Translations under genes and position numbers: made by a program
Notes under the pieces: generated by a model
The model's input: only the letters and a program-made list of their open reading frames with translations
Told to the model about the DNA's origin: nothing
Databases searched by the model: none
Shown here: positions 3,233 through 59,031 of the stretch, one piece after another
Numbering within the stretch: position 1 is the stretch's first letter
Layout of the letters: each line of letters opens with the position of its first letter
Assembly (NCBI RefSeq): GCF_011082725.1
Contig: NZ_CP049715.1
Location: 372,001 to 436,000 of the forward strand
Length of the DNA: 64,000 nt
Direction: 5' to 3'
DNA from: Apibacter sp. B3706
GTDB lineage: Bacteria; Bacteroidota; Bacteroidia; Flavobacteriales; Weeksellaceae

Positions 3233-3961
3233 ATGTTTTCAATTTTTAAAAAAGAACTTTGGGCATATTTTGGAACATTAGGCGCATATATTGTTTCGGC
3301 TGCTTTCTTGTTAATCTGTTCTTTATTTTTATGGTTTTTCGATAATGATTTTAATGTTTTCAATGTAGGATTGGCTACATTAAATAACTTTTTTATACTT
3401 GCTCCCTGGGTATTGATGTTCCTATTACCTGCCTTGACAATGAAAAGCATTGCGGAAGAAGAGCAAAACGGTACTTTGGTCTGGTTATTTTCTCAACCAT
3501 TGTCTGTTTCATCTATTGTTTTAGGAAAATATTGGGCAATTTTAATTCTAGTCTTATTTTCTTTACTTCCTACTTTTACCTTTGTTTATACGATTAATAA
3601 TTTAAGTTTACCGAAAGGAAATATAGATTCAGGAATCATTGTTAGCGGGTATATCGGATTACTCTTTTTGTCCATGACCTTTGCTTCAATTGGTATTTTT
3701 TGTTCTTCCTTAGTAAAAAATCAGGTATTAGCGTTTGTCACAGGTGTCTTTTTTTGTTTTATTTGTTTTTATGGATTTGAAAATTTGGCATCGTATAATC
3801 TGTTAGGAAATTTAGATTATACCCTGCAAAAAATAGGATTTTTTCAACATTATACCAGTTTTACCAAAGGGATCGTAGATACAAGAGATATAGGTTATTT
3901 TATCTTTGTAATAGTTGGATTTCTTTTATTATCGATTCGAATAATCAACAGCAAAAAGTAA
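3233..3961 (+). CDS. gldF: GldF-type ABC transporter permease
   Basis: The 242-residue integral membrane protein has six predicted segments. The ABC-2 permease motif KSIAEEEQNGTLVWLFSQP lies near residues 70-88, and it starts MFSIFKKELWAYFGTLGAYI as GldF proteins do. GldF pairs with GldG, and with a GldA ATPase encoded elsewhere, in a transporter needed for gliding in some Flavobacteria but also kept in non-gliding relatives. Its stop overlaps the gldG start (TAATG), indicating translational coupling. Confidence 0.92.
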   Translation: MFSIFKKELWAYFGTLGAYIVSAAFLLICSLFLWFFDNDFNVFNVGLATLNNFFILAPWVLMFLLPALTMKSIAEEEQNGTLVWLFSQPLSVSSIVLGKYWAILILVLFSLLPTFTFVYTINNLSLPKGNIDSGIIVSGYIGLLFLSMTFASIGIFCSSLVKNQVLAFVTGVFFCFICFYGFENLASYNLLGNLDYTLQKIGFFQHYTSFTKGIVDTRDIGYFIFVIVGFLLLSIRIINSKK

Positions 3962-5637
3962 TGATATATTTAAAAAAGATAAATATTAGCTTAGTATTCC
4001 TACTTATTGCAGGTCTTATATTGGCTAGTGGTTTTTTTTATAAAAGGTTTGACTTAACTTCGGATAAACGATATACGTTAACTGAAAGTACTCGTCAAGT
4101 ATTAAAAAAAATTGATGAGCCGATGCAGATTGATGTATATTTAGAAGGAGATTTTCCTGCAGATTTTAAACAACTGCAGTCTGAAACTCTCAGTCTGCTG
4201 GATGAATTTAAAAGGTTAAATTCCAATATTAATTTTCAATTAATAGATCCAATAAAGGAAAAATTATCACAAGAGACATTAGAAGCTATGGGAATGGCTC
4301 CTTCGGCTTTGCGGGTTGAAAAAGATGGAGCATCATCTCAACTAATTTTATTTCCTTATGCAACTATAAAATATAAAGGCAATGGGCAAACAGTACCGTT
4401 AATAATTTCTCAGGCAGGAATAACAGGAGATGAGCAAATGGCTAAATCTATCGAAAATCTGGAATACGGTTTTATCAGTGCTATTGATAAGTTATCCAAT
4501 AAACGTTTGAAAAGTGTAGGCATTTTAGTAAATCAAAAAGAACTGAATCGATTGGAAATGTTCAGCCTGGCTAACAGGATTCATCAAAGTTATAATTTCG
4601 GACCTATTTTTCCTAAAGATAGTCAGACCTTGTCACTTCAGGATTTACCAATACTTAAGAAATTTGACGCCATACTGATTGCCAAACCAAGAAAGGCTTT
4701 TACTGATAAAGAAAAATTAACGATTGACCAATATATCATGAGTGGAGGTAAAACACTATGGGCAATTGATCAAGTTAATGCCGAAATGGATACTTTGCTT
4801 AAGTCCAGTAAAATATTGGCTTATCCGTATGATCTTAATTTAACTGATTTATTATTTTCTTACGGAGTAAGGATAAATTCCGGAATTGTTAAGGATATAA
4901 AAAATCCTACTTATATAAATTTACAGGTTGGAGAAATACAAGGAAATGCACAAAATGCAAGAGTACCTTGGGTATATTTTCCTATGGGATTTTCCTTGAA
5001 TAATCATCCGATAACCAAAAATATTAATCCAGTATCCTTTCAGTTTCCTACTTCAATAGATACCTTAGATACTCCCGGAGTTAAAAAAACAATTCTCTAT
5101 CAAACTTCTTCCTATACTTCGCTTCAAGGAGTACCCTCTTATATATCACTTGAAGAAGCAAAGTTATTTGAAAGAGAAAATGTAAATTGGAACGAATACA
5201 ATAAAGGGCCTAAAATATTGGCAGTTTTGCTTGAAGGGAAATTTACCTCTGCATACAAGGATAGGATAGAGTCTAGTGGAATTAAAAATTTTGTGGACCG
5301 GTCAAACAATAATAAGATGATCGTTATATCCGATGGTGACATAGCAAGAAATCAGGTGATAAAAGGTCAACCTTTGCCTTTAGGTTTTGATTATTCAACA
5401 GGTATTACTTATGGAAATGAAGAATTTTTAATAAACGCCCTGGACTATTTATTAGATGATCACGGTTTAATGCTTTTAAGAAACAGGACGGTACAAATGA
5501 GAATGTTGAATAAGCCTCTAATTGTTCAGGAAAAAACGTATTGGCAATGGTTAAATTTAGGCGTTCCTATCGTTTTAGTCAGTATCGTAGGAGGTTCTTT
5601 TATATTTGTAAGAAGAAAAAAGTTTAGTAAAAAATAA
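3961..5637 (+). CDS. gldG: GldG, gliding-associated ABC transporter accessory protein
   Basis: The 558-residue protein has one N-terminal membrane helix (about 9-27), a large extracytoplasmic region of the GldG/DUF4350-like type (LDEFKRLNSNINFQLIDP near 85-102; GGKTLWAIDQV near 262-272) and a C-terminal helix (about 528-549) ending in RRKKFSKK. Length and topology match the family. It is coupled to gldF and followed after 2 nt by the methyltransferase gene. Confidence 0.92.
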   Translation: MIYLKKINISLVFLLIAGLILASGFFYKRFDLTSDKRYTLTESTRQVLKKIDEPMQIDVYLEGDFPADFKQLQSETLSLLDEFKRLNSNINFQLIDPIKEKLSQETLEAMGMAPSALRVEKDGASSQLILFPYATIKYKGNGQTVPLIISQAGITGDEQMAKSIENLEYGFISAIDKLSNKRLKSVGILVNQKELNRLEMFSLANRIHQSYNFGPIFPKDSQTLSLQDLPILKKFDAILIAKPRKAFTDKEKLTIDQYIMSGGKTLWAIDQVNAEMDTLLKSSKILAYPYDLNLTDLLFSYGVRINSGIVKDIKNPTYINLQVGEIQGNAQNARVPWVYFPMGFSLNNHPITKNINPVSFQFPTSIDTLDTPGVKKTILYQTSSYTSLQGVPSYISLEEAKLFERENVNWNEYNKGPKILAVLLEGKFTSAYKDRIESSGIKNFVDRSNNNKMIVISDGDIARNQVIKGQPLPLGFDYSTGITYGNEEFLINALDYLLDDHGLMLLRNRTVQMRMLNKPLIVQEKTYWQWLNLGVPIVLVSIVGGSFIFVRRKKFSKK

Positions 5638-28400: not shown

Positions 28401-28691
28401 TTATTTCTTTTTTAACTTTTTAATGGTAATAATTGAAATACTTATAAATCCTATAATTGTAGCAAAAAGATAGGTTAAGAACATAAAATTTAAATACTTA
28501 GAAGGTATGGGATCATACCAATAGATAATAATCATTTCTGCTGCCTGAAAAAATAGTAATATACCGACTATGTATAAAATAATGAAAAACATATACTTCA
28601 TTATATCGGTAGTTTTTAGTAAAAACCGATAAAGCATAAATGAAATAATAATAAATCCAATAAAGAGCAAACTATAAATAAAGTAAATCAT
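28401..28691 (-). CDS. Small four-helix membrane protein of unknown function
   Basis: The 96-residue protein is almost entirely hydrophobic, with segments near 3-23, 32-52, 68-88 and a basic tail IKKLKKK. A cytoplasmic or periplasmic loop carries YWYDPIPSKYLNF. I recognise no family. It follows the CNNM-domain gene by 11 nt and is probably cotranscribed with it. Confidence 0.65.
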   Translation of the reverse strand: MIYFIYSLLFIGFIIISFMLYRFLLKTTDIMKYMFFIILYIVGILLFFQAAEMIIIYWYDPIPSKYLNFMFLTYLFATIIGFISISIITIKKLKKK

Positions 28692-28702
28692 AAAAAATAG
28701 TA

Positions 28703-30028
28703 TTAATCAGTAATTTCATCTTCAGCGGAACTCTCCTCGTTTTCCTCCGTAGAATTAAGTTTTTCCATTAATACTTTATCTATTCTATTTGCATCTTTAT
28801 CTACAATTTCAAATGAAAATCCGTTATAATTGAATTTTTCGGCAACTTCAGGAATATACTCCATGTGATAAATAATAAATCCGGCTAATGTAACATATTC
28901 ATCATCGTCTAATTCTATAATGGTATCATCAAAAAAAGAATTTAAATCTCTAATTCCTATATTACCGTTAACTAAATATGAACCATCTTCACGTTGCACA
29001 ATTTCTGTCTCCTCTTCATCGCTCTCAGGCATGTCACCTACAATACCTTCAATAAGGTCTTGCAAAGTGATAATACCTTGAAAAGTACCATATTCATCTA
29101 CAACAAAACCCATATGCTGTTTATTTTTACGGAATTCCTGTAAAATATCAACAGAATGCATATTTTCATGAATGAAGATCGGAGTTTTTAAAATGGATTT
29201 GATATCAAAATTTGGTGTATTTATATTTTCATAAAATTCTTTTATTGCCAAATAGGCATTAGCTTCATCTAAATTACCGTCACAAACTGGAAATTTGGTA
29301 AAATTGCTGTCTTTAATTTGCTTTTCAATTTCTTCGAAACTATCTTTTAGATTAATCCATTCAACTCTTTTGCGGTATGTCATTAAACTTTTTGCTTTTT
29401 GTTCTGAAAAAGCAAAAACATTCTGATGCAATTCACTTTCCTCTTTTTCTAAAACCCCTTGTAAACTTGCTGTCTTAAGCATATAAATTAGTTCGTCCTC
29501 AGAAATTTTTTCACCTTCCACATTTGAAATTTTAAATATCTTGTTAAATATATGGGTTGAAAATGAAAGGATTTTAACAAACGGATACAAAGCCATTGAA
29601 AAAACTTTGATAATTGGAGCAACAGTCAAAGCTATTTTTTCAGGATTTCTCATGCCGAAAGTCTTAGGAATTAACTCTCCCAAAACTATGGACACATAAG
29701 TAATCAATGCTATAATTACCATATAAGACAGTTCATTAGCATGGGTTGCTGTCAATGAGAAATGCTCAAAAAATGGAGTAACGTATTTTACTAAGGTAGC
29801 GCCTCCATAAGCACCCGATACAATACCGATCAAAGTTATACCCACTTGAATAGAAGATAAAAAATCTTCCGGTTTTTCTAAAAGATTGAGTACTATTTGA
29901 GCCTTTTTATTTCCTTTTTTAACTTTGTTTTCAATTTTTTGCCTCTTTACAGATACTAAGGCAATCTCAGATATAGCGAAAAAGGCATTTAAAAGAGTTA
30001 ATAATAAAAGAATTCCTATTTCTAACAT
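28703..30028 (-). CDS. CNNM/CorC-type haemolysin-family membrane protein
   Basis: The 441-residue protein has an N-terminal CNNM (DUF21) membrane domain (about 1-190, with FFAISEIALVSVKRQKIE and VLGELIPKTFGMRNPEKIA), two CBS domains (about 210-335, with HMGFVVDEYGTFQGIITLQDLIEGIVGD) and a C-terminal CorC/HlyC domain ending in an acidic tail. The family is linked to Mg2+/Co2+ export. It sits after gldD, whereas gldE, another CNNM protein, normally precedes gldD. This is the generic YfjD/HlyC type, not recognisably GldE. Confidence 0.88.
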   Translation of the reverse strand: MLEIGILLLLTLLNAFFAISEIALVSVKRQKIENKVKKGNKKAQIVLNLLEKPEDFLSSIQVGITLIGIVSGAYGGATLVKYVTPFFEHFSLTATHANELSYMVIIALITYVSIVLGELIPKTFGMRNPEKIALTVAPIIKVFSMALYPFVKILSFSTHIFNKIFKISNVEGEKISEDELIYMLKTASLQGVLEKEESELHQNVFAFSEQKAKSLMTYRKRVEWINLKDSFEEIEKQIKDSNFTKFPVCDGNLDEANAYLAIKEFYENINTPNFDIKSILKTPIFIHENMHSVDILQEFRKNKQHMGFVVDEYGTFQGIITLQDLIEGIVGDMPESDEEETEIVQREDGSYLVNGNIGIRDLNSFFDDTIIELDDDEYVTLAGFIIYHMEYIPEVAEKFNYNGFSFEIVDKDANRIDKVLMEKLNSTEENEESSAEDEITD

Positions 30029-30049: not shown

Positions 30050-30631
30050 TTATTCCCAGGTAGTTGTTTCAATCATTTTAATAATATCTTTTTCAATATA
30101 TTCAACAGCAGGTTGTAAAGAATCAGGCCGAGGCTGAACTTTAAAATATAAATTTCCTGAAAGGAAATGTTTAATACTGTCTGTTACATAAAATTGAATA
30201 TTTGAAGCAGATTCGCCTCCCAATCGATAAAGATTCCCAAATACCTTTTTTTCCGGATAAGAAAATGATTTGGTTTTTATAGAATTGGCTTTTATGGTAT
30301 GTTCATATACAAGTCTCTGAGCTTCTTTTAATAGCGAATTTAAATTTCCGTTTACCTCAGAATAAGTTAAATATAGAGTTGCTTTCATGAATGGATAACT
30401 AAAATTGTACCAACAATTTTTGTGTTTATCCTCTACTTTAGTGAGGTTCGAATACTGAAATTCAAAAGGACATTTTTCTTTTTTAAAAAGTATGTAATTG
30501 GGTGCAGGGTATTCTAATCTTACCTGGCCGATTGGCTTAGGTAAATATTCTTCTTTCTTACAACTAAGTAATAAAAAAGAAAATAGAATAATAAAATATA
30601 AAATATATAATTTTTTTAATGATTTATTCAT
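30050..30631 (-). CDS. gldD: GldD, gliding motility lipoprotein
   Basis: The 193-residue lipoprotein has a signal sequence ending FLLLSC-KKEEY (Cys24) and the GldD signature PKPIGQVRLEYPAPNYILF (about 32-50). KKEE after the Cys resembles a lipoprotein export signal. GldD is required for gliding in F. johnsoniae and is associated with type IX secretion; its exact role is unknown. It lies in the conserved mutY-ssb-gldD order, but gldE between ssb and gldD is broken here. Confidence 0.92.
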   Translation of the reverse strand: MNKSLKKLYILYFIILFSFLLLSCKKEEYLPKPIGQVRLEYPAPNYILFKKEKCPFEFQYSNLTKVEDKHKNCWYNFSYPFMKATLYLTYSEVNGNLNSLLKEAQRLVYEHTIKANSIKTKSFSYPEKKVFGNLYRLGGESASNIQFYVTDSIKHFLSGNLYFKVQPRPDSLQPAVEYIEKDIIKMIETTTWE

Positions 30632-30652: not shown

Positions 30653-30928
30653 TTAATTAAATAATATATATAACGAATTTTTAGATACAATACGTATATT
30701 ATCCCATCTATTACCAATAAATAGAAACTTTTTATATAAATATTTTATCTTGTAATAAAAATATTTTTGAGGGGATAAAGTATATGCAAAAGCAGTCAAT
30801 GCACATACCTGTAGAATTTTACTAAATAACTTAAAGAAAGTTTTTCTCTTAAAACAACAGGAGAAGAAAAAAATATAAAATAAGAGGATATAAATTAATG
30901 AAATACTCGTGGGCCCGGGCTCGTCCAT
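30653..30928 (-). pseudogene. gldE: Probable remnant of gldE
   Basis: The frame starts MDEPGPTSISLIYILLFYIF, like the N-terminus of GldE proteins as I recall them (MD-x-x-P-x-S followed by a membrane helix). It then departs into low-quality sequence (FFKLFSKILQ...). A +1 shift after the first helix reads REKLSLSYL, reminiscent of the GAEVAFFSLS segment of CNNM proteins. Only ~280 bp remain of a gene normally ~1.3 kb long. The position between ssb and gldD is exactly that of gldE. Confidence 0.5.
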
Positions 30929-30963: not shown

Positions 30964-31344
30964 TTAAAAATCATGCTGAATTATGTCTTCATTTTCAGGT
31001 TGTTTACCCAATAAGTTGGATAAAAATAAAATATTATCTGCAATAACTTCGGTAATATGTTTAGTAATACCGTTATCATCAAATTTACGGGTTTTAAGTT
31101 TTCCTTCAATGTAAACTTTACTTCCTTTTTTCAAAAATTTTTCACAAAGTTCTGCCAGTTTATTTCTTGCAGTTATATTATGCCAATCAGTTACATCTAC
31201 TTTTTCTCCGGTTTCTTTATTCATATAACTTTCAGATGTGGCAACCGGAAAGTTAACAACAATATTTCCATCACTAAACCTATAAGATTTTACGTCAGTA
31301 CCTAAATTCCCAACTAAAATTACTTTATTAATAGATGTACTCAT
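30964..31344 (-). CDS. ssb: Single-stranded DNA-binding protein
   Basis: The 126-residue product has the SSB OB-fold (SINKVILVGNLGTDVKSYRF; NFPVATSESY; DWHNITARNKLAELCEKFLKKGSKVYIEGKL) and a short acidic tail ending EDIIQHDF. The last residues differ slightly from the usual DDIPF tip that contacts partner proteins, and there is hardly any Gly-rich linker. The ATG at 31342-31344 (MSTSINK) is chosen because the longer frame crosses the promoter. Confidence 0.93.
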   Translation of the reverse strand: MSTSINKVILVGNLGTDVKSYRFSDGNIVVNFPVATSESYMNKETGEKVDVTDWHNITARNKLAELCEKFLKKGSKVYIEGKLKTRKFDDNGITKHITEVIADNILFLSNLLGKQPENEDIIQHDF

Positions 31345-31374: not shown

Positions 31375-31382
31375 CAAAAATA
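31375..31382 (-). promoter_or_regulatory. -7 box of ssb
   Basis: On the minus strand it reads TATTTTTG, an exact match, 30 nt before the ssb ATG and just behind the mutY stop. Confidence 0.55.
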
Positions 31383-31391
31383 ATAAAAAAT

Positions 31392-32384
31392 TTAATTATA
31401 AAATAAAAAATTTTCCATGGGTTTTGGAAAAGCGTAGCTTTTTAAGTTGTTTTTATTCAAAATTATAGCATTTATTTTATGGGCGACTTGATAAAAATCA
31501 TTTTCATCAATTTCAATTTCTGAAATGGTAATAGTTAACAATCTATGACTAAGCTTATGTTTGATCTGATGGTTATGGATAATTTGGTAATTTTTAAAAT
31601 TTTGGTCAAATAAGGGGAATTCATATAACCCTTTCCAAATCGAATTGTTATTTCTTTTTTTTATTAATGTTAAGTCTTTACAAAAAAGATAAGCATAATG
31701 TATACTTTCTTCTTTAATTTTAACCGAGGAAGATTTAATAGGAAGAACGTTTTGTAAATTATTAGTATAGGCCAAACATTCCTCCTGAATAATACATTGA
31801 TCGCATTTTGGATGTAACGGTGTGCAGACCATCGAACCGAAGTCCATGATCGCTTGATTGAAATCTCCCGGATTTTCTGGCATTAAAGGTTTAATTAAAT
31901 CAAAAAAGTAGGTAAAAGTGCTACTTTTACTTATATCTTTTTCTGAGCCAAAAACTCTGGAATATACCCGAAATGCATTACCGTCCAGCGCGGGTACTTT
32001 TTCATTAAAAGATATTGAAGCTATGGCAGCTGCTGTATATTTTCCGATTCCTTTAAGTTTAATTATTTCATGATAAGAATTAGGGAAAATACCATTTAAT
32101 TCATTTACAATGTATTTTGCGGTAAAGTGTAAATTGTGCGCTCTAGAATAATACCCCAATCCCTGCCAGGAATTTAATACTTCATCTTCGGAGGCATTTG
32201 CCAGAACTTTAACATTAGGAAACCGTTGAATAAAATTTAAATAATATTCATATCCTTGATTAATACGAGTTTGCTGAAAAATAATTTCCGAAATCCAAAT
32301 GTTATAAGGAGAAAGAGTTTCCCTCCATGGCAGTAAGCGTTTATTAATTTTATACCATTTCTGTAAAAGACTAATAAAATTCAC
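31392..32384 (-). CDS. mutY: A/G-specific adenine glycosylase
   Basis: Removes adenine mispaired with 8-oxoguanine. The 330-residue protein has SEIIFQQTRINQGYEYY with the catalytic Glu (about 33), the helix-hairpin-helix LKGIGKYTAAAI and VPALDGN with the catalytic Asp. Its [4Fe-4S] cluster is C-x6-C-x2-C-x5-C (CTPLHPKCDQCIIQEEC, about 187-203), and it has a C-terminal NUDIX-like domain. The start is GTG at 32382-32384; no in-frame ATG exists before an upstream stop. Confidence 0.95.
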   Translation of the reverse strand: MNFISLLQKWYKINKRLLPWRETLSPYNIWISEIIFQQTRINQGYEYYLNFIQRFPNVKVLANASEDEVLNSWQGLGYYSRAHNLHFTAKYIVNELNGIFPNSYHEIIKLKGIGKYTAAAIASISFNEKVPALDGNAFRVYSRVFGSEKDISKSSTFTYFFDLIKPLMPENPGDFNQAIMDFGSMVCTPLHPKCDQCIIQEECLAYTNNLQNVLPIKSSSVKIKEESIHYAYLFCKDLTLIKKRNNNSIWKGLYEFPLFDQNFKNYQIIHNHQIKHKLSHRLLTITISEIEIDENDFYQVAHKINAIILNKNNLKSYAFPKPMENFLFYN

Positions 32385-32425
32385 ACTTTTAAATGTTTAT
32401 AAGTTTTACTTTCCAAAAATAATAT

Positions 32426-54660: not shown

Positions 54661-57600
54661 TTAATTCAACCTGAAATCTAAATACAGATCGTTTCTTAAT
54701 ACATCTAAAATTTGTTTATTTATATTTACTCTTCGGTTCATTGATTGAGATTCTAAATACACATTGTTCTTTTTATCGATAATTTCAAAGTGTATATCTT
54801 TTGAACCTGCATTTTCATCACATACTTTATTTAAAGTAGTAATGGTATTTTCATCTAAATTTTCCAAGTTTATCTTAATGGTTAATTTTTTGGCATGTTT
54901 TCCGATTACATCGCTAAGTTCTTCGATATTCAGCACGTTTATATATACAAAGCCGTTATCTTTAATCATACCTACCGTGATTTTTACTAAAACAAATAAA
55001 TTAGGAATAAGATATTTTTGCAAATCCAGATAATTCTTTTTAAGCTTAAGAGAAATAGTACCTGTTTTATCTTCCAAATCAAAATAGGCGATTCTTGTTC
55101 TGCCGTCGTTTATTTCCTTATGCTCAAAACGAGAGATCATACCGGCAATATACACTTCCTTATTAATATAATTTTCTTTATTTTCATTAATTTCGGAAAT
55201 ATCAATAGGTTTAATCAACGCAATTTCGTATTTGTAATTATCCATTGGATGAGCAGATATATAGATACCTACTACTTCTTTTTCTCTACCCAATTTATAC
55301 ATGGTACTCCATTCTTCCGTTTCAGGAATTACCGGTTTCATAACATCAAATCCTTCATCCCCCAAGTCTCCAAATAAAGAATTTTGAGCAGAATTCTTAT
55401 TATCCTGATAGGCAATCCCGTATCTTACCAGCTTTTCAATAGTGCTGGTACCATTTTCTTCTTTAAAAAATTGAGCACGATTATTATTGGCTAATCCATC
55501 AAAAGCCCCTGCCAATACTAAATTTTCCAGAACTTTTTTATTTATATTTTTTAAATCTGTCCTTTCAAAAAATTCAAACAGATTTTTATATTTTCCCTTA
55601 GTTTGTCTTTCACTTACTACAGCTTCAACAGCATTTTCACCGATTCCCTTAATAGCTCCCATTCCAAAACGGATAGCACCTTTTTCATTTACGGTGAATT
55701 CATAATCACTTTCATTAACATCAGGTCCAAGCACTTCCAATCCCATATTTTTACATTCTTCCATAAAGAAACTCAAAGTGGTAAGATTGTTAAGGTTATT
55801 GCTGAGCAATGCGGCCATAAATTCTGCAGGAAAATGAGCTTTTAAATAAGCGGTTTGAAAGGCAATAAATGCATAACAAGTGGAGTGAGATTTGTTAAAA
55901 GCATACTGTGCAAAAGCTTTCCAGTCTTCCCATATTTTTTTTAATTTATCTTCAGGATGACCTCTTTCGATAGCTCCCTCAAGAAAACGAGCTTCCATTT
56001 TATTTAAGACTTGTATTTGCTTCTTACCCATAGCTTTTCTTAGCACGTCCGCATCACCTTTGCTAAATCCGGCTAATTTTTGAGAAAGTAGCATTACTTG
56101 TTCTTGATAAACAGTAATTCCGTAAGTATCCGCAAGATACTCTTCCATATCCTCTAAATCGTAAGAAATTTCTTCCTTTCCATGTTTACGATTGATAAAG
56201 TTGGGAATATATTGTAAAGGTCCGGGACGATACAAGGCATTCATGGCAATCAAGTCTTCAAACTTATCGGGTTGCAATGCTTTGAGGTGCTTTTGCATTC
56301 CGGGGGACTCGTATTGGAAGATCCCTACTGTATTTCCATTTTTGAATATCTCATAGGTTTTATCATCATCCAAAGGAAAATCATCAGGATTTAAAACTTC
56401 ACCCGTCCTTTTTCTAATAATTTCAATGGTATCGGCAATAATCGTCAAAGTACGTAAACCTAGAAAATCCATTTTTAACAATCCGGCACTTTCTACCACG
56501 GAGTTATCAAATTGGGATACCAACAAAGAGGAATCTTTAGCAACGGCAACCGGTATTAAATTAGTAATATCTTCCGGAGTAATAATTACTCCACACGCAT
56601 GAACTCCCGTGTTCCGTAAGCTACCTTCCAGTTGGTAAGCATTTTGTATTACCCGCCCTTCCAGGTCATATTGATTAAATTTTTGTTTGAGTTGAAGTAC
56701 AGGAACAGACTCCTCTTTACCGAAATCTTTAATTAACTCACTTTCTGTTTTATTTTTTAGCTTGGTTAAATTTAAGGTAGAGGGTAGGTTTTTTGATAAG
56801 CGGTCTGTATCGCTTAAGGGCAATTCAAGCACTCTTCCTGCATCCCTTATTGCGGAACGTCCGGCTAATGTACCGTAAGTAATTATTTGAGCAACCTGAT
56901 TTTCTCCGTATTTATCTACCACCCATTGAATGATTTTTTCACGTCCTCTATCGTCAAAATCGATGTCTATGTCGGGTAAGGATACCCGATCCGGATTTAA
57001 GAAACGCTCAAAAAGTAAATCGTATTTAATAGGATCTATATTAGTAATCCCTATGCAATAAGCAACGGCTGATCCGGCTGCAGAACCTCGACCCGGACCA
57101 ACAGATACGCCCATTTTACGCGCTTGTGAGGTGAAATCCTGTACAATGAGAAAATATCCGGGATATCCCGTTTTGGCTATGGTTTCCAACTCAAATTGTA
57201 AACGATCTTTAGTATCTTCGGATAATTGGTCGCCATATCTTTTTTTAGCACCTTCCCAGGTAAGATATGCTAAGTAGGCATTTTCTCCTCGCTTTCCTCC
57301 GTCCACTTCATCTTGAGGGTCTTTAAATTCATCAGGTATATCAAATTTAGGAAGTAAAACATCTCGGGTTAATTGATAAGGTTCAAATTTTTTGATAAAG
57401 TCTTCAAAATTTTCAATTGCTTCCGGTATATCTGCAAACAATTGAGCCATTTCTGTTTGAGATTTAAAATTATATTCATCATTAGGAAGACCGTATCTTC
57501 TTCCAAAACCTCTGCCCTTAGGGGTAGATTGTTTTTCTCCGTCTTTTATACATAAAAGGATATCCTGGGTTTCTGCTTCTTTTTTACTAATATAAAATGT

Positions 57601-59031
57601 ATCGTTTTGAGCTAAAACTTTGACTCCGTATTTTTTGGCAAATTTTATTAAAACTTTGTTGAGGTGTTCCTCTTCATCTAAATGGTGTCTTAATAACTCT
57701 ACATAAAAATCATCACCAAATAATCCATGCCAATAGATAAAGGCCTCTTCTGCCTGCTTTTCTCCCACATTTAAAATTAGACTGGGAATTTCTGAAGATA
57801 AACTTCCGGTAGTTGCAATTAAATTTTCTTTATATTGTTCAATAAGTTCTTTTCCAATTCTGGGATAGCCTGCATATAAACCTAGTTTATATCCTAATGT
57901 TGATAATTTAGAAAGATTTTTAAATCCTTCATGATTTTTAGCAAGTAATATCTGAGTATATCTACGATCCGGATTATCTTTTGTAAACTTATTTTGTAAA
58001 TATGTTTCAGATATATACAGTTCACAACCGATAATTGGTAAAATCTCATTTTTTAAAGGTTCAGAACCATTGCCTTCTAAAATTTTAGTATTATGATCTT
58101 TAATAGATCCATTAGCTTTTTTTATTTCATTGAGAAAAGCAAATGCACCCATCAAGTTGCCCGTATCCGTTACACCTAAAGCGGGCATGTTATATTCTAA
58201 GGTTTTTTTTATTAAATCAGAATGTTTACTGGTAGAAGTAAGTATTGAATAAACCGAATGATTGTGAAAGTGGAAAAAAGATGAATAATTTATTTCATCT
58301 ACAGATTTTTTAGTACTTTCTGATTTCCCTTTTAGTTGCTTATTAAAATCTTTGACCTGTTCACGAATAACAATATCAAAAGGTTGAAAAGGTTCAGGAT
58401 GAGTTTCAATAAAAGCACTTAATTCTTCTTCTGTAAAATTCAGCTTATTTGCACTTATTTGGTTTCGTCTAACCAACTCCCAAAATGCCTGAGCAGTAGC
58501 ATTAACGTCTGCCGCAGCATTGTGTGCCTCATCAAAACCATGCCCAAATAATTTTTCATATAATTCGGAAAGTTTAGGAAATTTAAATCCACCTCCCATA
58601 CCTCCGGGCAAAGCACAAAAATTAGTTCCCTCACGGGCTGTATCTATTAACGGAAGATCCGCAATATGGTTTTCAATTGATTTTCGATAAAATTCAGCTC
58701 CAACAATCGGGATGTCGAATGCTATATTTTGTCCGACTAAAATCGGATTATCTGCAAGCACCGCATTAAATTGATCCAATACGGTTTTAAGATCATGACC
58801 TTCCGCTAATGCTTTTTCGGTACTTATACCGTGAATTTTTTGAGCATTGAAAGGTATGTCGTATCCTTCGGGTTTAATTATATAGTCATAGTTTTCAATT
58901 AAATCACCATTTTCATCATGTAACTGCCAGGCAATTTGAACCATTCTAGGCCAATTGTCTGAATCGGAAACAGGTGCATTTGCATTGGCAGGAAGACCTG
59001 TGGTTTCAGTATCAAAAACTAGGAATTTCAT
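54661..59031 (-). CDS. dnaE: DNA polymerase III alpha subunit with fused exonuclease
   Basis: The 1456-residue replicative polymerase has an N-terminal DnaQ-type DEDDh exonuclease (about 1-190: FDTETTGLP, GQNIAFDIPIVGAEF, DEAHNAAAD). It continues with a PHP domain (about 250-470), palm with PDIDIDFDDRG (about 685-695), thumb/fingers (NALYRPGPLQYIPNFINRKHG; FNKSHSTCYAF) and an OB domain (about 1270-1350). Several PHP metal ligands are replaced (VTDTGN, YTQILLAKN, NDTFYIS), so proofreading presumably rests on the fused exonuclease. The gene stands alone on the minus strand. Confidence 0.96.
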   Translation of the reverse strand: MKFLVFDTETTGLPANANAPVSDSDNWPRMVQIAWQLHDENGDLIENYDYIIKPEGYDIPFNAQKIHGISTEKALAEGHDLKTVLDQFNAVLADNPILVGQNIAFDIPIVGAEFYRKSIENHIADLPLIDTAREGTNFCALPGGMGGGFKFPKLSELYEKLFGHGFDEAHNAAADVNATAQAFWELVRRNQISANKLNFTEEELSAFIETHPEPFQPFDIVIREQVKDFNKQLKGKSESTKKSVDEINYSSFFHFHNHSVYSILTSTSKHSDLIKKTLEYNMPALGVTDTGNLMGAFAFLNEIKKANGSIKDHNTKILEGNGSEPLKNEILPIIGCELYISETYLQNKFTKDNPDRRYTQILLAKNHEGFKNLSKLSTLGYKLGLYAGYPRIGKELIEQYKENLIATTGSLSSEIPSLILNVGEKQAEEAFIYWHGLFGDDFYVELLRHHLDEEEHLNKVLIKFAKKYGVKVLAQNDTFYISKKEAETQDILLCIKDGEKQSTPKGRGFGRRYGLPNDEYNFKSQTEMAQLFADIPEAIENFEDFIKKFEPYQLTRDVLLPKFDIPDEFKDPQDEVDGGKRGENAYLAYLTWEGAKKRYGDQLSEDTKDRLQFELETIAKTGYPGYFLIVQDFTSQARKMGVSVGPGRGSAAGSAVAYCIGITNIDPIKYDLLFERFLNPDRVSLPDIDIDFDDRGREKIIQWVVDKYGENQVAQIITYGTLAGRSAIRDAGRVLELPLSDTDRLSKNLPSTLNLTKLKNKTESELIKDFGKEESVPVLQLKQKFNQYDLEGRVIQNAYQLEGSLRNTGVHACGVIITPEDITNLIPVAVAKDSSLLVSQFDNSVVESAGLLKMDFLGLRTLTIIADTIEIIRKRTGEVLNPDDFPLDDDKTYEIFKNGNTVGIFQYESPGMQKHLKALQPDKFEDLIAMNALYRPGPLQYIPNFINRKHGKEEISYDLEDMEEYLADTYGITVYQEQVMLLSQKLAGFSKGDADVLRKAMGKKQIQVLNKMEARFLEGAIERGHPEDKLKKIWEDWKAFAQYAFNKSHSTCYAFIAFQTAYLKAHFPAEFMAALLSNNLNNLTTLSFFMEECKNMGLEVLGPDVNESDYEFTVNEKGAIRFGMGAIKGIGENAVEAVVSERQTKGKYKNLFEFFERTDLKNINKKVLENLVLAGAFDGLANNNRAQFFKEENGTSTIEKLVRYGIAYQDNKNSAQNSLFGDLGDEGFDVMKPVIPETEEWSTMYKLGREKEVVGIYISAHPMDNYKYEIALIKPIDISEINENKENYINKEVYIAGMISRFEHKEINDGRTRIAYFDLEDKTGTISLKLKKNYLDLQKYLIPNLFVLVKITVGMIKDNGFVYINVLNIEELSDVIGKHAKKLTIKINLENLDENTITTLNKVCDENAGSKDIHFEIIDKKNNVYLESQSMNRRVNINKQILDVLRNDLYLDFRLN

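Follow-up and report, generated by a model that had tools for sequence, protein, structure and literature searches.

A stop-free remnant of gldE in front of gldD in Apibacter and its possible role as a translated spacer

In the genome of the bee-gut Apibacter examined here (G000, complete, 2.30 Mb), a single short frame lies between ssb and gldD, the place that gldE takes in the order mutY-ssb-gldE-gldD, which raises the question of whether gldE has been lost and, if so, why a fragment of it remains open. The window, namely the whole 64-kb stretch of DNA that was analysed, is a part of this genome, and its features are listed in Table 1. A first-pass annotation had seen in this frame the only one between ssb and gldD, a product of the reduction of gldE to a fragment, with gldD, gldF and gldG remaining intact. 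The frame was confirmed at that place, and the three gliding genes are all full length, though the GldF score lies below the curated cut-off. An intrinsic terminator was sought in the region and none was found, and a search for the locus on plasmids returned mutY as the sole match.

Table 1. Features of the 64-kb window (positions are those of the window)
Feature	Position	Strand	Remarks
gldF, full length	3233..3961	+	265 bits; curated cut-off 288.5
gldG, intact	3961..5637	+	581 bits; cut-off 390
96-aa ORF	28401..28691	-	conserved in Apibacter with the mutY-ssb-gldD cluster; no family match
CNNM/CBS/CorC_HlyC membrane protein behind gldD, not GldE	28703..30028	-	206.5 bits with the GldE profile; cut-off 376
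gldD, intact lipoprotein gene	30050..30631	-	TIGR03512, 234 bits; cut-off 120
gldE remnant	30653..30928	-	276 nt, 91 codons (91 aa), ATG; stop 21 nt before gldD
gldE start element, ATGGACGAGCCCGGGCCCACGAGT	30905..30928	-	part demonstrably homologous to gldE
ssb, upstream of the gldE remnant	30964..31344	-	
Promoter-type box TATTTTTG, ~38 nt before ssb	31375..31382	-	match to the TAnnTTTG box
mutY, first gene of the cluster	31392..32384	-	
Promoter-type box TATTTTTG, before mutY	32414..32421	-	
DnaE (DNA polymerase III alpha)	54661-59031		N-terminal DnaQ-like exonuclease region, residues ~1-193

Loss of gldE and identity of the fragment

GldE proteins (family TIGR03520, curated cut-off 376 bits) carry CNNM, CBS and CorC_HlyC domains. 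A profile search of the whole complete genome revealed no GldE above this cut-off, and hence no second gldE, a check that the first-pass annotation had proposed; the CNNM gene behind gldD was the only match to the profile (~206 bits). The 91-aa remnant is related to GldE by its position in the gldE slot of the mutY-ssb-gldD cluster, by its start codon region and by its first ~9 residues, of the MDDPxPTS type, which together with ~24 nt match the intact gldE start of A. adventoris and of G007 (ATGGACGAGCCCGGGCCCACGAGT here and ATGGATGACCCTGGGCCCACGAGT in A. adventoris, 21 of 24 nt being identical). It differs from GldE in that the CNNM, CBS and CorC_HlyC domains are absent, no match to NCBIfam GldE or to Pfam was obtained, and the score with our own GldE profile is -0.4 bits. 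Outside Apibacter, the 91-aa ORF has weak matches only. We conclude that gldE is lost in this genome and that only its start region is left, in agreement with the first-pass annotation as regards both the fragment and its GldE-like first residues.

The gldE body has been deleted or has diverged past recognition, while the remnant frame itself is uninterrupted. The sequence following the start had been described as losing family resemblance, which holds past residue ~12, and as seemingly frameshifted, which is unsupported because no frame on either strand of the G000 region matches the GldE profile beyond that residue, whereas a stretch of equal size from the intact G007 gldE scores 105.7 bits. 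A frameshifted full gldE is thus ruled out. An internal deletion keeping the GldE C-terminus too appeared plausible by eye and found no support in profile scores compared with those of shuffled sequences.

With regard to the CNNM/CorC protein behind gldD, the possibility that it may substitute for GldE had also been raised. Its best NCBIfam match is PaeA (NF052568), with 292 bits for an equivalog cut-off of 500, and its score with the GldE profile is likewise below the cut-off of that family. Since the gene stands alongside an intact gldE in two congeners, A. adventoris and G007, it is a separate paralogue that predates the loss of gldE, and a newly acquired substitute is ruled out. In G005, the CNNM gene has been shortened in frame to a small ORF with both ends kept, located between gldD and the next gene (L040:6339-6552), possibly a second case of the same kind as the gldE remnant.

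Distribution of gldE and fate of the gliding system

Named species among the congeners include A. mensalis, A. adventoris and A. muscae; several others are MAGs that carry the label Flavobacteriaceae. A GldE over the cut-off is present in A. adventoris (G002), G007 and G005 only, always encoded between ssb and gldD, and gldE is absent from the present genome, A. mensalis (G008), G004, G006, G001 and A. muscae (G003). Five of the nine Apibacter species (G000, G008, G004, G006 and G001) have kept the remnant, with the same start, always open and ending near or running into gldD. These five group together in the tree as a clade (bootstrap support 83 from eight genes and 61 from four), which fits a single loss, so that the gldE body was most simply lost in one event in their ancestor. 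A. muscae represents a separate, clean loss, where gldD lies close behind ssb with no fragment in between and the start element has gone without a trace. The A. muscae cluster (L039, G003:C16) is devoid of both gldE and the CNNM gene, a CNNM-type gene being found elsewhere in the genome.

At a larger scale, GldE was detected in 9 of 197 genomes of the sampled family, in 218 of 296 genomes of the sampled order and in 118 of 150 sampled Flavobacterium; gldE is dispensable and has been lost many times in Flavobacteriales. In family f16, a GldE above the cut-off is retained in strongly reduced genomes of 0.3-0.6 Mb (among them G051 and G222), whose size is endosymbiont-like, an indication that GldE serves some function other than gliding.

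Apibacter reportedly possess the genes for gliding together with a type IX secretion system, and one strain was observed to glide (PMC5913662). Moreover, F. columnare, F. psychrophilum and F. indicum, three gliding Flavobacterium, reportedly lack gldE and, like the present genome, have kept gldD and the other gliding genes (PMC5395568, PMC5714932). The view of a decayed gliding locus caught midway must therefore be abandoned, as GldF, GldG, GldJ and SprA are all present in this genome and published gliding species do without gldE. However, the resemblance to gldE-less Flavobacterium does not extend to the remnant: in the 17 such genomes whose ssb–gldD spacer was read, gldD follows ssb by 13-234 nt, with no remnant frame.

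Selection on the remnant frame

The open frames of the five species span 91 (G000), 89 (G008), 84 (G004), 85 (G006) and ~91 codons (G001). Relative to the gldD start, the remnant stop is found at -4 nt in G006, +15 nt in G004, +21 nt in G000 and +27 nt in G008. In G001 (L036:5503-6357), no stop separates the frame from gldD, into which it continues in frame, and the codon homologous to the ATG start of gldD in the other species is ATT; G001 being a MAG, a sequence error may lie behind this fusion.

Among sequences of the same composition, 0.06% have a stop-free frame of 89 codons. When the 61 changes observed between G000 and G008 (codons 13-89) were placed at random, the frame stayed open in 1.8% of cases and acquired a stop in 98%. 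In neutral tree simulations with the five sequences, three of which are close, none of 1500 runs kept all five frames open, and lowering the rate to a quarter of the estimate made no difference. By contrast, the mutY remnant of G006 (L035:7149-7584), which lies ahead of an intact ssb and of the promoter box belonging to that gene, contains stops in all frames. Random placement, neutral simulations and this contrast together establish that the gldE remnant frame is held open by selection, beyond chance, at variance with the decay that had been assumed. A dead gldE pseudogene that stayed open by chance in five species, after independent or recent losses, would account for the high dN/dS of the whole frame (0.62, against 0.03-0.13 in the neighbouring genes) and would suit the recurrence of gldE loss in the order, but we regard it as very improbable, given the outcome of the simulations and the fate of a truly dead gene in the same cluster; nor can the loss be recent, since the body no longer resembles GldE.

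Beyond codon 12, dN/dS in the G000-G008 pair is 0.70, compared with a mean of 0.68 (P=0.62) under a null in which the observed changes were placed at random with the avoidance of stops as the sole rule, a comparison that involves one species pair and is compatible with weak constraint. For the G000-G004 pair, dN reaches 0.40 and dS 0.53. The amino acids beyond codon 12 thus evolve, between G000 and G008, as if selected only against stop codons. The first-pass annotation had held that the same small ORF, if conserved as an intact gene in relatives, would speak against its reading; the frame is indeed open in five species, but the protein sequence is not kept. This bears directly on the explanation by which the remnant, as a descendant of the GldE N-terminus, specifies a small membrane protein that is functional and evolves fast. 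The open frames, the conservation of residues 1-12 and a hydrophobic N-terminal stretch in the three members of the bee clade (1.5-2.3 on the Kyte-Doolittle scale, 19 residues) are what such a protein would predict, yet the amino-acid change past codon 12 is not below that of the stop-avoidance null, the hydrophobic stretch occupies another place in G006 and is weakly developed in G001, and no convincing protein-family match was found. We therefore consider a functional small protein rather unlikely.

The part of the frame that is conserved, at its very start, is remarkable at the nucleotide level. Three remnant-bearing Apibacter share 25 identical nt at this element, and CCCACGAGT is found unchanged in seven Apibacter as well as in a further genus. 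Across the order, gldE starts follow a pattern that usually reads TTG GAY CCN GAN CCC ... AGT, the TTG start being nearly universal outside Apibacter (L148, L209, L211, L228 and others). The N-terminal Ser is encoded by AGT in 45 of 50 gldE genes, against 16% of the other Ser codons of those genes, and the Pro before it by CCC in 20 of 26, so that no other of the 69 conserved four-fold columns has a codon as uniform, although such counts overstate the independent evidence because gldE genes are related. The element also looks like a piece of a common sequencing adapter; this likeness is a coincidence, contamination being ruled out by the occurrence of the element in frame within intact gldE genes of Apibacter (two cases) and of a further genus. 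It is found at one locus per genome, G005 having one further match with one mismatch elsewhere than at its gldE start, and a regulon site is thereby ruled out. Our guess is that the element acts as a special initiation signal for the TTG start usual in gldE. From there, one could propose that only the first ~30 nt matter, as a binding site or initiation signal acting at the nucleic-acid level, the rest being free to change. The identity of the element across genera and its codon bias are in favour of this proposal, which nevertheless seems quite unlikely to be the whole explanation: it leaves the open frame beyond the element unexplained, the single locus per genome leaves no regulon to serve, no conserved RNA fold was found at the element, and A. 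muscae has lost it altogether.

A possible translated spacer in front of gldD

The TAnnTTTG motif is the Bacteroidetes promoter box, and transcription of gldD from the mutY and ssb promoters has been proposed in F. psychrophilum (PMC5682007). In all nine Apibacter, TAnnTTTG boxes precede mutY and, between mutY and ssb, ssb itself. Between ssb and gldD, no box is present in this genome and none at a position shared across the nine; isolated matches lie inside the remnant of G008, G004 and G006, at differing places. A TAnnTTTG within 90 nt of gldD is present in 13 of 23 other genomes of the family or order in which gldE does not adjoin gldD, against 7% of shuffled sequences. Where gldE is intact, its overlap with gldD amounts to 8-14 nt in nine of nine Weeksellaceae copies examined, and in 33 of 39 genes the two either overlap or are separated by no more than 10 nt.

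On the strength of these sequence features, we propose that the remnant may be a translated spacer, kept because its being translated aids gldD and not for the sake of its protein, a reading in which our confidence is evenly balanced. Ribosomes loading at the former gldE start would travel through the stretch without a promoter that separates ssb from gldD, and would terminate at the gldD start or close to it. Expression of gldD and of the CNNM gene would be maintained by avoiding the loss of transcription over untranslated RNA (polarity), and/or the remnant would hand ribosomes over to gldD. Before the loss of gldE, the overlapping gldE-gldD pair probably did likewise. The model would also cover the two remnants of the cluster: that of mutY in G006, lying before the ssb box, would need no translation and has decayed, whereas that of gldE, lying after this box, has stayed open.

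Between the two modes of action, gaps of 15-27 nt exceed what termination-reinitiation can bridge efficiently in E. coli and Haloferax (PMC10666635), which makes a strict ribosome hand-over doubtful in three of the species. Of the two, avoidance of polarity is the one that would suit all five species, and reinitiation may operate in G006. No RNA structure that translation would have to open was detected at the gldD start, and no hairpin at the gldE or gldD start was conserved. A spacer of this kind is not required in general, since in A. muscae and in the 17 gldE-less Flavobacterium gldD lies close behind ssb with no fragment.

The arrangement recalls translationally coupled pairs, both in the overlap of intact gldE with gldD and in the 4-nt overlap of the G006 remnant with gldD, which is the commonest coupled arrangement (PMC10666635). 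It differs from them in the gaps of 15-27 nt in three species, a coupled frame having its stop in overlap with the next start or no more than ~10 nt away, and in the seeming irrelevance of the upstream product. Leader ORFs of bacterial operons offer another parallel, as short frames in front of a gene, translated in leaders and putatively so here, and the remnant shares with leader and coupled frames the selection for an open frame; in contrast to leaders, it derives from a degraded gene, and nothing in it points to a conserved peptide or to an RNA switch.

For the gliding system, these results correct the reading of the locus, in that the absence of gldE is no marker of a decaying gliding system. 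They also separate selection on the protein from selection on the act of translation, which are usually lumped together. Somewhat more tentatively than for the translated spacer itself, we suggest that the remnant may be a gutted gene whose sole selected property is freedom from stops, the loss of a gene within an operon leaving behind a frame that evolves and is never interrupted. If this is true, some of the short 'hypothetical proteins' of operons would be relics kept open only for the passage of ribosomes, and could be detected as frames whose amino-acid change matches a null of stop avoidance only.
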